Positions 56,071 through 60,983 of a DNA stretch of 64,000 nt are shown here, piece after piece. Numbering within the stretch: the stretch's first letter is position 1; every line of letters begins with the position of its first letter. The position numbers and the translations under genes are program-made. This stretch comes from an uncultured SAR86 cluster bacterium (GTDB lineage: Bacteria > Pseudomonadota > Gammaproteobacteria > Magnimaribacterales > D2472), in NCBI GenBank assembly GCA_905478035.1, contig CAJQGX010000005.1, positions 1-64,000 on the forward strand, in the 5' to 3' direction. Under the pieces are notes generated by a model, which worked only from the letters and a program-made list of their open reading frames with translations, was not told where the DNA came from and did no database searches.

Positions 56071-59058
56071 ATGCAGCTTAAACACATAAAACTAGCAGGT
56101 TTTAAAAGTTTCGTAGATCCAACGAAGATATCCTTTCCCACAAATTTAGTTGGCGTTGTTGGTCCAAATGGATGTGGTAAATCAAATGTCATTGATGCAG
56201 TTAGGTGGGTGCTTGGAGAGCTATCAGCTAAGAACCTTAGAGGCGAATCAATGGTTGATGTTATTTTTAATGGCTCTGAAAATAGAAAGGCATCAGGTCA
56301 ATGCAGTATAGAGCTGCTTTTTGATAACTCAAGTGGAAAAATTGGTGGTGAATACTCAGCATTTAATGAAATTTCTATAAAAAGATTAATGAATAGAGAT
56401 GCACAATCTACCTATTTTATAAATAGCACAAAATGCAGAAGGAAGGACGTTCAAGATATATTTCTTGGAACAGGTCTTGGTCCAAGCTCATATGCAATCA
56501 TAGAACAGGGAATGGTAAGCAGATTGGTCAGTGCAAAACCGGAAGAATTAAGGACCCATATCGAAGAAGCTGCTGGAGTATCTAAATATAGAGAGAGAAG
56601 AAGAGAGACTGAAAGCAGAATAAAAAAGACAAAAGAGAACTTATCTCGTGTTAAAGATATTAAAGATGAAATTGAAAGACTTATTCGTAGATTAGAAAAT
56701 CAAGCAAATGCTGCAGAAAAGTATAATGCTCTCAAGAAAGAAGAGTCAGAAAACCAAATTAATACAGCTATATTATTTTCGTTGGAAGCTAAAAATAATA
56801 GAGATCAACTTCAAAAGAACCTTGATGGTTTAAATAGAGACCTAAAAATAAAACAGGCTGAATCCGATACAAAACAATCACAAATAGATGAATATAGAAC
56901 TCAGAATGAATCAGTTGTAGATTCTTATGAAACAGCACAAAAGAATTTCTACAGTATTGGATCAGAAATAGCCAAGCATGAGGCTGATCTTCAAAATATA
57001 TCTAAATCAGAATCTTCAAATCTAGAATCTCTTGAAAGAGCCAAACAAAGCTATAAAAAAGCATTAGAAAAAGAATCATCTTTTAAAGATCTTAGCCCTA
57101 AGCAGCAGGAGTTAAAGCTTAATATAGCGATAATTAAGGCATTAGATGCTGTAAAAAATAAAGATATAATTTTAGAGAGAACTAAACCCTTAGAAAGCGA
57201 TATTGAATCTAAGCAATTGGATCTAGATTCAAGAGAAGAGACAATAAAAGCAGCTAAAGAAAAACAAAGAATTGCAAATGAAAAAGTTAATGAACTACAA
57301 GCAATGAGTTATTCAATTGGGGGCAATATAGCAAGACTTGAAGGTAGTATCCTTAATCTAGAAAAAGTAAAAACCCAAGCTAATAAAGATCTTATATCTG
57401 CAAAAGAAAACTATGAAAGAGCTTTAGAAAAAGAATCTAATGCTGAAAATTTAAGTCCCAAAGAAAAAACAATACATTTAATTGATAGCATTTCTGAGCT
57501 TTTAACCAATCTTGGCTCTAATGGAAATCTTATTAATAAAAAGGTAAAAGAATTAAAAGAATTATTAATGAGCATTCTAAAGATTGCATCTGACCAATCT
57601 AAATCTTTTACAGACGAGTTTCTTAAAAGAAAAAAAGAGATTGAAGATCTCCTTAAAAGTAATTCAGAAGAAAAGATATTAGCTGAAAAGGATCTTTCGA
57701 TTCTCCACGATGAGCAAAAAACCTTAATCGACGATCTCGCTTCTAATAATGCTATTTTATCAAAACTAGATGCAGAAGTAAGAGAGCTGGATGGAGGTAA
57801 GTTATTTGTAGCTAATGAATTAAGATCAATAGAAAAAGAAATAAATGATCTTAAGCTCGATTTAAGAACCTATGAGATTAATCTACAAAATGCATCTCAA
57901 ATACTTGATAAAGCTGAAATTGATATTTCAGATTTAAACTCTGAAGAGTATCAAGGAATGGATCTTGAGGGTCTAGAAGCATCTCTTGATGAGGTACAAA
58001 AAAATATTAATAACTTAGGTTCTATTAACTTGGCATCTCCAGACGAATACCTAGAAAGACAAAATGAATTATCTGAAAATATTCAAAATAATCAAAATAG
58101 AAAACTAGAAATTCAAAATATTATGTCTGATTTAGTTAACAAAAGCTCAGAAGCGGAATCAGTTTTATTGGATATTCGCCAGAAACAATCTAGATTTAAC
58201 GAGAGTATGAGAGAGCTTGAAAATAAGAAGTCCATAGCTGAATTAGATCTTAAATCAATATCTGAAAAAGTTACTAATGTAAGATTAGATCTAAAAACTT
58301 ATGAGATAAATCTAGAAAATGCTAATACTAAAATAAAAGAAGCTGGATTAAAGATAGAAGATATAGATTATTCTAAATATGATGGGTTAAATACCAAAGA
58401 TCTTCAAGATAGACTTGCCGAAATCCAAGCTAAGATTATTAGATTAGGGGCTATAAATTTAGCCGCTCCAGAAGAGATTGCTCAAGAATCAAAAAGAAAA
58501 GAAGAGCTAGATATTCAATATGAAGATTTAACTGATGCCTTAGATAAACTTTCTGGTGCAATTAAGACAATTGATGCAGAAACAAAAACAAGGTTCCAAG
58601 ACAGCTTCGATGCTATCAACGTTAGAATGAAAGAAGTTTTCACAAAGCTTTTTGGAGGAGGCTATGCTGAATTAGCTTTAACTGAAGGTGATGCCTTAAA
58701 TGCTGGTGTTGTGATTATGGCAAGACCTCCTGGTAAAAAGAATTCATCTATTTCTCAACTATCTGGTGGTGAAAAAGCTTTAACTGCATTGGCTTTAGTT
58801 TTTGGTATATTTGAATTAAATCCTGCCCCATTTTGTATCTTAGATGAAGTGGATGCACCTTTAGATGATTTAAACACCATGAGATTTATAAATATGGTTG
58901 AAGAAATGTCAAAGACTGTTCAATTTATCTTTATAACCCATAATAAAGTTTCAATGGAAAAAAGCGACCACCTAATGGGTGTCACTATGCAAGAGGCCGG
59001 GGTCTCAAGAATGGTTTCTGTTGATGTAAACCAAGCTCTAGAATTTGCAGAGGCATAA
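56071..59058 (+). CDS. smc: Chromosome segregation ATPase Smc, apparently hingeless
   Basis: ABC-type SMC ATPase. The head halves are canonical: Walker A 'GPNGCGKSN' (residues 31-39), 'SSYAIIEQGMVSRLV' and 'EEAAGVSKYRERR' at the N-side; signature 'LSGGEKALTALALVF' (897 on) and Walker B 'FCILDEVDAPLDD' (921 on) at the C-side. The total of 995 residues is about 160 short of usual bacterial Smc. I find no hinge domain in the middle; the whole of 165-830 reads as coiled coil. Two segments are duplicated: 327 and 447 ('YKKALEKES', 'YERALEKES', each followed by 'LSPK'), and 596 and 739 ('LDLRTYEINL', 'LDLKTYEINL'), with 'LGSINLAS' at 649 and 'LGAINLAA' at 792. zipA starts at the next base. Confidence 0.93.
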   Translation: MQLKHIKLAGFKSFVDPTKISFPTNLVGVVGPNGCGKSNVIDAVRWVLGELSAKNLRGESMVDVIFNGSENRKASGQCSIELLFDNSSGKIGGEYSAFNEISIKRLMNRDAQSTYFINSTKCRRKDVQDIFLGTGLGPSSYAIIEQGMVSRLVSAKPEELRTHIEEAAGVSKYRERRRETESRIKKTKENLSRVKDIKDEIERLIRRLENQANAAEKYNALKKEESENQINTAILFSLEAKNNRDQLQKNLDGLNRDLKIKQAESDTKQSQIDEYRTQNESVVDSYETAQKNFYSIGSEIAKHEADLQNISKSESSNLESLERAKQSYKKALEKESSFKDLSPKQQELKLNIAIIKALDAVKNKDIILERTKPLESDIESKQLDLDSREETIKAAKEKQRIANEKVNELQAMSYSIGGNIARLEGSILNLEKVKTQANKDLISAKENYERALEKESNAENLSPKEKTIHLIDSISELLTNLGSNGNLINKKVKELKELLMSILKIASDQSKSFTDEFLKRKKEIEDLLKSNSEEKILAEKDLSILHDEQKTLIDDLASNNAILSKLDAEVRELDGGKLFVANELRSIEKEINDLKLDLRTYEINLQNASQILDKAEIDISDLNSEEYQGMDLEGLEASLDEVQKNINNLGSINLASPDEYLERQNELSENIQNNQNRKLEIQNIMSDLVNKSSEAESVLLDIRQKQSRFNESMRELENKKSIAELDLKSISEKVTNVRLDLKTYEINLENANTKIKEAGLKIEDIDYSKYDGLNTKDLQDRLAEIQAKIIRLGAINLAAPEEIAQESKRKEELDIQYEDLTDALDKLSGAIKTIDAETKTRFQDSFDAINVRMKEVFTKLFGGGYAELALTEGDALNAGVVIMARPPGKKNSSISQLSGGEKALTALALVFGIFELNPAPFCILDEVDAPLDDLNTMRFINMVEEMSKTVQFIFITHNKVSMEKSDHLMGVTMQEAGVSRMVSVDVNQALEFAEA

Positions 59059-59679
59059 ATGCAAAGTAATTTTGATATATATCTAATTGGCTTTTCTGTT
59101 TTAATTTTTTTGACGATTCTATTTTTCTTTATCAGAAAGATTTCTAGCTCAAATGATTTGAAGGTAAAAATTGAACCAGTCTCTGATTCGTTTGAAATTA
59201 AAGAATTCGATGATGTGAAGCTAGAAACCCAAAAGTCATTTGATTTTGAAGAGCAAGAGTTTGTTAGTGATCAAGAATTAGTAATTCTTAATTTAATTTC
59301 AGTCGATAAATCTTCCTTTGATATTGATCAACTCTTTGGTTTTATGAATAACTCTAGAGCAAGATTGGTCCACGGTTTTTTTTCCTACAAAGGCTCTAGC
59401 AAAAAAGAAGTATTTAGGGTTGCTAATGCATTGAATCCAGGAACATTTGAGGAGAATACAAAATCATTTGCTATTTTAATGGTAACTGATTTAAACAATG
59501 TTGAAGACCCTCTATCGGCTGTTAGAGAAATGGTGGCATTTGCTTACAACTTTTCTGAAAAATTTTATGCAAACATCTGTGATGCTGAAAGATTACCAAT
59601 AACCAAACAAATGATTTCACACATAGAATCTAAAGCTCAAGAAGTCATGAGATTAAGGCAACTAAAGAAGTTTGATTAG
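59059..59679 (+). CDS. zipA: Cell division protein ZipA
   Basis: A 206-residue protein with an N-terminal membrane anchor (residues about 7-26), an acidic linker, and a C-terminal FtsZ-binding domain: 'LVILNLISVDKSSFDIDQLFGFMNNSRARLVHGFFSY', 'FAILMVTDLNNVEDPLSAVREMVAFAYNFSEKFYANICDAERLPITKQMI'. It tethers FtsZ to the inner membrane. The linker is much shorter than in E. coli (328 residues). The order smc-zipA is the conserved gammaproteobacterial arrangement, in which NAD-dependent ligA normally comes next. Confidence 0.92.
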   Translation: MQSNFDIYLIGFSVLIFLTILFFFIRKISSSNDLKVKIEPVSDSFEIKEFDDVKLETQKSFDFEEQEFVSDQELVILNLISVDKSSFDIDQLFGFMNNSRARLVHGFFSYKGSSKKEVFRVANALNPGTFEENTKSFAILMVTDLNNVEDPLSAVREMVAFAYNFSEKFYANICDAERLPITKQMISHIESKAQEVMRLRQLKKFD

Positions 59680-59687
59680 TATACAAA

Positions 59688-60983
59688 ATGGCAAATAATA
59701 TGCTCCCATGGAAAATTATTCAAAAACTTGAAAGTGACAATAGCAGGCTATTCAAAGAAGATGTTGTTGAAAATCACCTTAATGACATAGAAATTCAAGA
59801 AGGCTTGGCTATGTGCCTAGATTCTTTAGTAACTTTTGGTGTTAAGCAAGTGCCAGATTCAAGTCAAGATGGCCCAGGCCTTAGTTGGGTTAATTTTAAA
59901 AGGAATGCAATCTTATTGATCAATCGTGATAAAACTGGACATGCTGCAAGGGACTTAATTATTGAATTAATGCATGAGGCAACTTCTGAACAATGGAACG
60001 ATTGGTATAGACGAATTCTAATAAAAGATCTCAGATGTGGAGTAAGTGAAAAAACTGTAAATAATGTTGCAAAAAGAATGGGTATCAAATTTAGAGTACC
60101 AGTTTTTTCATGCATGCTAGCGCATGATGGGGCCAAGCATCCAAAAAAAATAAAAGGACCTTGTTTAGTTGAATATAAGTATGATGGAGTCAGAGTAATA
60201 GCAATTACCAAAAATAGCTCAACAACCTTATATAGCAGGAACGGAAAAATTTTAAGTAACTTCCCTCATATTGAAGAGGCTCTTAGCAAAAAGGAATTTA
60301 ATAATCTTGTCCTTGATGGAGAGGTTATGAGTGATGACTTTCAGTCTTTAATGAAACAGGTGCATAGAAAAACAAACGCAAAGACAGATGATGCTTACCT
60401 TGCCTTGTTCGATGTGCTGCCACTATCAGAGTTCAATGAAGGAAAAAGTATATTAGATACTTTGCAAAGAAAAGAAATACTAAACCAACTTTCAAAAGAT
60501 TTCTCAAAATGTATCAAGCCAGTTGATTTTACTATTATTGATTTTGACACTGAGGCCGGCGAAGAAACCTTTTCAAAAATGAATAAAAAAGCTTTAAGCG
60601 AAGGTTATGAAGGCCTAATGATTAAACCAGAAAGTGCAATATATGAAAGTAAAAGAAGTCATGCTTGGCTAAAAATTAAACCATTTATAGAAGTCACTTT
60701 AAAAGTAGTAGATATTCAAGAGGGAACAGGCAAACATGCAGGTAAGCTTGGTGCATTCACTGTAGAAGGTCAGGATGATGGTAAATTCTTCTCTTTGAGT
60801 GTTGGCAGCGGCCTAACAGATGAAGATAGAGAAAAGTTCTGGGCTTCAAAAAATCAACTTATTGGCCAATTAATTGAGATAAGAGCTGATGCAATTACAC
60901 AGAGTATGGAAGGCGAAACGTATAGCTTACGATTCCCAAGATTTAAAACTTTTAGAGGATTTGAAGTAGGAGAGAAAATATGA
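59688..60983 (+). CDS. ATP-dependent DNA ligase of T4-like type
   Basis: A 431-residue polynucleotide ligase. Motif I is 'VEYKYDGVR' with adenylated Lys164, motif III is 'LDGEVMSDDF', motif IV 'EGYEGLMIKPESA' and motif V 'SHAWLKIKPF'. The C-terminal OB domain has 'GAFTVEGQDDGKFFSLSVGSG' and 'LRFPRF'. An N-terminal helical domain includes 'RRILIKDLRCGVSEKTVNNVAKR', like the 'RRVMMRDLECGAS' stretch of T4 ligase. It occupies the place of ligA after zipA. It lacks the zinc-finger, HhH and BRCT domains of NAD-dependent LigA. Its stop overlaps the next gene by four bases. Confidence 0.93.
   Translation: MANNMLPWKIIQKLESDNSRLFKEDVVENHLNDIEIQEGLAMCLDSLVTFGVKQVPDSSQDGPGLSWVNFKRNAILLINRDKTGHAARDLIIELMHEATSEQWNDWYRRILIKDLRCGVSEKTVNNVAKRMGIKFRVPVFSCMLAHDGAKHPKKIKGPCLVEYKYDGVRVIAITKNSSTTLYSRNGKILSNFPHIEEALSKKEFNNLVLDGEVMSDDFQSLMKQVHRKTNAKTDDAYLALFDVLPLSEFNEGKSILDTLQRKEILNQLSKDFSKCIKPVDFTIIDFDTEAGEETFSKMNKKALSEGYEGLMIKPESAIYESKRSHAWLKIKPFIEVTLKVVDIQEGTGKHAGKLGAFTVEGQDDGKFFSLSVGSGLTDEDREKFWASKNQLIGQLIEIRADAITQSMEGETYSLRFPRFKTFRGFEVGEKI

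Follow-up and report, generated by a model that had tools for sequence, protein, structure and literature searches.

A Natural Hinge-Less Smc with a Nested Rod Duplication in SAR86 Bacteria

Introduction

Smc proteins are generally held to dimerise through the hinge, their standard dimerisation domain, which requires about 150 residues. Among other SMC-like proteins, RecN has a short coiled coil and no hinge, and would be the nearest precedent for dimerisation at the tip of a coil. Bacillus subtilis Smc accepts the Rad50 zinc hook in place of its hinge, and the nature of the dimeriser counts for less than the length of the arms; the arms of natural prokaryotic Smc proteins cluster near 238, 341, and 515 residues (PMC5344682). 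The coiled coil is interrupted by a segment known as the joint (PMC5526789), and the hinge was proposed in 2025 to act as a gate for obstacle bypass (PMC12647877). An oceanic "hinge-less" SMC cluster, which was assigned to Actinobacteria, has no zinc hook and was not seen beside a normal Smc, was also described recently in a paper in which SAR86 and Gammaproteobacteria do not appear (Sussfeld et al. 2025, PMC12153180).

Here, a Smc encoded in a 64,000-nucleotide stretch of an uncultured SAR86 cluster bacterium (contig CAJQGX010000005.1, hereafter the window) was compared with these systems. Like canonical Smc-ScpAB (TIGR02168), it has the head and joint motifs, coiled-coil arms, ScpA/ScpB partners, and smc-zipA gene order, whereas its 995-residue chain lacks the hinge and the hinge-proximal arm halves and carries a second head-proximal rod within the arms. 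The cluster of Sussfeld et al. is likewise marine, hinge-less, and devoid of a zinc hook, but belongs to another phylum as assigned there, and no internal duplication was described for it (PMC12153180); its existence also outdates the statement, made in a sequence-only reading of the window, that every known Smc dimerises by a hinge. Engineered B. subtilis mini-Smc and Smc(zinc hook) proteins, in which the arms were shortened or the hinge was swapped, support growth and keep a folded dimerisation domain, whereas the SAR86 change is natural and its apex consists, by prediction, of helices only (PMC5344682). SMCL-1 of Caenorhabditis elegans is SMC-like and without a hinge, but it lacks conserved signature-motif residues and regulates condensin, whereas the SAR86 heads are intact and belong to the only Smc found (PMC5373644). 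A hinge-less Smc as such has been reported once before (PMC12153180), while neither the order-wide loss in SAR86 nor the nested duplication of the rod seems to have been described; for the latter, a search of the open literature found no paper.

The smc Gene, Its Neighbourhood, and Its Partners

By sequence, the gene at 56071..59058 (forward strand, stop included; 995 aa) is a true smc, which was filed as a hinge-less variant rather than a canonical Smc because the hinge (PF06470) was not found in its product. The protein scored 836.5 bits against the NCBIfam model TIGR02168 (cut-off 567.35), Pfam detected SMC_N, and both ends matched solved Smc heads in the PDB (E about 1e-106). The split ABC ATPase head is complete: Walker A (GPNGCGKSN) lies in the N-terminal half (residues 1-170, 56071..56580, +), and the signature LSGGEKA and Walker B CILDEVDAPLDD lie in the C-terminal half (residues 862-995, 58654..59055, +), all of them intact. 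No RecN model was among the NCBIfam matches, RecN being a different family. No second Smc, with or without a hinge, was found in the source genome (a draft of 57 contigs, 88% complete).

The gene sits between a cytochrome-c maturation cluster and zipA (59059..59679, +; PF04354, E 9e-13), a conserved gammaproteobacterial neighbour of smc that lies downstream of it in 27 of 27 SAR86 loci; this conserved order provides positional evidence that 56071-59058 is the native smc. The closest named relative is the single-cell genome AAA076-P13 (87% identical), and SAR86A belongs to the same family (f1). The source genome also encodes ScpA and ScpB, adjacent to each other on contig C55. ScpB was detected in 38 of 41 SAR86-order genomes and MukB in none of the 41, including the source genome; the MukB N-terminal domain (PF04310) was absent from the Pfam scan of the 995-aa protein.

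Further downstream, an ATP-dependent DNA ligase is encoded at 59688-60983 (+), at the position that the NAD-dependent LigA occupies after smc-zipA in relatives. Searches for LigA (PF01653) found none in the source genome and none in several near-complete members of the family, among them the single-contig genomes G001 and G007, whereas it adjoins smc in other family members (G009 and G015). The ATP-dependent enzyme looks like an in-place replacement of the replicative ligase.

Absence of a Hinge

Pfam SMC_hinge (PF06470) gave no match at E<=1 in the 995-aa protein and zero matches across the whole source genome (88% complete); as a control, the same model detected a full-length gammaproteobacterial Smc (E 1.6e-9). 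A purpose-built profile derived from the hinges of 66 full-length gammaproteobacterial Smc proteins, which reached at least 100.6 bits on all 66, had no match on the 995-aa protein and did not exceed 3.7 bits on the short Smc proteins. The AF2 model of the 995-aa protein contained no strand between residues 171 and 861 and had helical arms (mean pLDDT 71.5), and the arms of the 732-aa SAR86A Smc were helical throughout, its apex likewise being modelled as a short helix, a loop, and a long helix (mean pLDDT 73), both models being of moderate confidence (pLDDT 71-73) and built from alignments of 17-18 sequences. The absence of a hinge noticed in the sequence-only reading was thus confirmed by Pfam, by the dedicated profile, and by the predicted fold. 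Rad50/SbcC and archaeal ASRPs also combine SMC-like heads with a coiled-coil hairpin without the Smc hinge, but they dimerise by a CXXC zinc hook, whereas the only cysteines of the 995-aa Smc are at residues 35, 78, 122, and 922. As none is present between residues 123 and 921, a hook of the Rad50/SbcC type was ruled out.

Hinge Loss across the SAR86 Order and Beyond

A survey of 151 SAR86-order genomes from four families revealed no hinge match reaching the Pfam cut-off (0 of 151, including 0 of 40 at >=90% completeness). The Smc proteins of this order fall into discrete length classes (727-733 or 995-996 aa in f1, 733-736 in f4, 821-827 in f2, and 809-810 in f3), compared with 1,120-1,179 aa (about 1,165) in the hinge-bearing gammaproteobacteria examined. 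The 732-aa Smc of f1 is colinear with residues 1-335 and 824-1165 of the full-length protein, with about 56 residues in between, and the hingeless form of ~730 aa is present in a complete chromosome (CP097973). This comparison of sequences places the loss of the hinge, together with the hinge-proximal halves of the arms, in an ancestor of the entire order, which accounts for the hinge-less state of the 995-aa protein. The sequence-only reading had proposed that a copy of the arm hairpin replaced the hinge, which is no longer tenable: hinge and hinge-proximal half-arms are already gone in the ~730-aa relatives and across the order, implying that the hinge was lost before the rod was duplicated. 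No homology was detected between the apex sequences of different SAR86 families, which argues against one conserved dimer interface at the apex.

Hingeless Smc proteins were also observed in two other gammaproteobacterial families with small genomes (about 1 Mb), namely f145 (926-956 aa; L090, L230-L237, and L239) and f42 (931-947 aa; L041 and L226-L229). The order mates of f42 have hinge-bearing Smc proteins of 1,134-1,176 aa (two of these were checked, with hinge scores of 151-155 bits), and the f42 heads cluster with these proteins (0.845 support), which makes a loss common to SAR86 and f42 unlikely. In an early head tree of smaller size, the other short forms had come out next to SAR86; this position was not upheld with more outgroups. 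Taken together, these sequences suggest that at least two, perhaps three, independent hinge losses are likely to have occurred in Gammaproteobacteria.

Nested Duplication of the Arms

Between the heads, the 995-aa protein contains two pairs of repeats arranged around a short apex, all on the forward strand. On the N-side, an outer repeat A1 (residues 228-347, 56752..57111) is followed at an offset of 120 by an inner repeat A2 (residues 348-467, 57112..57471), the junction being LSPK followed by ..ELKLNI. On the C-side, the inner repeat B1 (residues 515-657, 57613..58041) ends in a second, joint-like INLASP motif, and the outer repeat B2 (residues 658-800, 58042..58470) starts with DEYLERQ and ends with INLAAP. 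Copies of ALEKES are found at residues 331 and 451, of LSPK at 341 and 461, and of INLA at 652 and 795. A1 and A2 are 31% identical (z 8.9 against heptad-preserving shuffles) and B1 and B2 are 32% identical at offset 143 (z 10.6), while other windows of the protein have a mean identity of 8-9% and a maximum of 18%. Across relatives, repeat identities range from 27 to 51% (z 6.7-16.8 against the same kind of shuffles; other windows <=20%), and both pairs reach 51% in L016. All 19 distinct long forms (18 of 995 aa and one of 996) align without internal gaps and have two junctions in common, LSPK.. followed by ELKLNI and INLA.P followed by (D/E)EY. Hence the N-side repeats with shared ALEKES and LSPK and the nested order A1-A2-B1-B2, both pointed out in the sequence-only reading, hold; on the C-side, its offset of 143 and second INLA motif also stand, and only the term "close copies" overstates an identity of 31-32%.

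The apex (residues 468-514, 57472..57612), delimited by AF2 secondary structure, is predicted to form a short helix, a loop at 479-481, and a long helix. Its conserved sequence (LSPKEKA..LLD from residue 461 ... ILkIAsdQSK) and the joint represent conserved islands in an otherwise variable coil. In the AF2 model, residues 171-861 are helical with joint breaks, and the head-proximal arms were matched by profile, so the protein is predicted to have a pair of long coiled-coil arms and a joint close to the heads; additional mid-arm helix breaks were predicted at 338-342 and 615-656. Full-length Smc matches A2 with residues 239-335 of its head-proximal arm (probability 96%) and B1, end to end, with residues 828-970 (probability 97.5%), indicating that the rod still present next to the heads was the source of the copy, which includes part of the joint. 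The 732-aa form has a Smc head plus joint (5xei) as its best fold match. The unequal repeat lengths (120 versus 143 residues), which had been raised as a caveat against simple pairing of the arms, are real but largely explained by non-helical joint breaks on the C-side strand. From AF2 secondary structure, arm length was estimated at roughly 290-340 residues in the 995-aa form, which is near the canonical 341, and at about 170-190 in the 732-aa form.

History of the Inner Rod

In the head tree, 995-aa forms occur in three places, each next to ~730-aa forms. In the rod tree, outer rods, including A1, track the host lineage, whereas the inner rods are all united in a single clade (UFboot 100); the inner A repeats and the inner B repeats are also each monophyletic in trees of their own. 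Independent duplication in each genus was rejected (dlogL 202, AU p 7e-6). Between a position of the inner clade beside genus g9 and an origin at the base of f1, the former fitted better, though not significantly (AU p 0.79 versus 0.23), and a count of events on the head tree gave about seven losses for the f1-base origin and about two transfers for the g9 origin. The ratio of inner to outer divergence was 2.4-2.6 within genera and for g1 versus g4, and 1.1-1.4 for g9 versus others. These patterns hint at lateral spread of the inner rod between lineages, but the low g9 ratio may instead reflect saturation.

Forms of ~730 aa and of 995 aa coexist within genera, both in g8 (L014 versus L035) and in g9 (L015-L017 and L121 versus L074, L076, and L077). 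In G036, another member of g8 (L019 / L095), a ~1,000-aa form is split by an in-frame TGA into frames of 709 and 212 aa, which may reflect either an error of assembly or a broken gene.

Discussion

The comparison strongly supports an origin of the 995-aa form after hinge loss, by insertion of a copy of the head-proximal rod at the helical apex of a ~730-aa Smc. It is probable that the protein is the single functional Smc of its host and the motor of Smc-ScpAB, shaped by order-wide hinge loss and later rod insertion, with its subunits joined through apex and rods. As the comparison shows, both the hinge and the arm halves next to it disappeared in an ancestor of the SAR86 order, and what was left was a short rod with a small helical turn at its closed end; later, in the family that contains SAR86A, one recombination event would have inserted the rod copy at this turn, and the resulting A1-A2-apex-B1-B2 arrangement would have restored a near-canonical arm length and added a partial second joint in mid-arm. 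The absence of the hinge supports the earlier suggestion that the subunits need another way to join. The protein most likely operates as an otherwise normal head-driven Smc-ScpAB motor, with subunits that would be held by the helical apex, rod-rod contacts, heads, and kleisin instead of a hinge, and joining by apex and rod contacts together with heads and ScpAB seems the most likely arrangement.

Several other explanations were considered. Sequence profiles can overlook diverged domains, but the arms are separated by no more than about 45-55 residues, which form helix or short loop throughout in both models, and the 732-aa form of f1 lacks full-length residues 336-823 with about 56 residues in their place; this length is too small for a hinge, and the idea of one diverged past sequence detection is effectively refuted. 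Nor is there much room for a Smc that is degenerate or dispensable, or for an artefact of assembly: the source genome is a draft of 57 contigs and one relative (G036) has an in-frame stop, but the same gap-free architecture recurs in 19 distinct sequences from single-cell and MAG assemblies, the shorter hingeless form is part of the complete chromosome CP097973, and zipA synteny is kept. Furthermore, dN/dS in close pairs was 0.01-0.02 for the heads and 0.05-0.22 for the inner rod (synonymous sites are near saturation in more distant pairs), which, along with the conserved apex and joint islands, indicates a maintained protein rather than a relic, so that decay or artefact is extremely improbable.

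How the rod was lengthened and how the subunits are held leave somewhat more latitude. Tandem duplication is the commoner mutation, and either repeat, taken alone, looks tandem, so the arms might have grown by two separate events (A, then B); however, intermediates of about 850 or 875 aa were absent among the relatives examined, the inner A and inner B repeats are each monophyletic, and both units extend over the full distance between apex and joint, for which a single hairpin insertion needs no coincidence. We therefore consider two tandem duplications rather unlikely and infer a single insertion. With regard to joining, monomers could be held only by head engagement plus ScpA/ScpB, as an open V with no joining at the apex and no closed ring. 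The retention of ScpA and ScpB, the lack of detectable apex homology among SAR86 families, and the nature of the f1 apex, merely a short helix-loop-helix, would fit such a molecule, but within f1 the apex is conserved above the surrounding coil, rod-rod contact along the arms belongs to canonical Smc (PMC5526789), and the hinge or hook is considered essential as a module for dimerisation (PMC6969161, PMC5344682). The open molecule thus has perhaps one chance in a few, and apex and rod contacts remain the favoured means of joining.

A bolder reading, which we regard as speculative and rather doubtful, is that a condensin can lose the hinge completely and be rebuilt through the exchange of arm modules: the inner rod would have had a single origin, passed from genus to genus by recombination, and added a mid-arm elbow from the copied joint, and the complex would work without an apical dimerisation domain and hence without a hinge gate. 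If there is no apical joint, SAR86 Smc would also lack the gate for bypassing obstacles that the hinge has been proposed to form (PMC12647877).

An abundant ocean order living without the hinge, plus at least one further loss in other gammaproteobacteria with small genomes, shows that the hinge is dispensable in nature, and its role becomes directly testable by comparing related species. The natural matched pairs of about 730 and 995 aa within one genus would in turn allow the effect of arm length to be tested. SAR86 may therefore be considered as a natural experiment of a Smc motor without a hinge.
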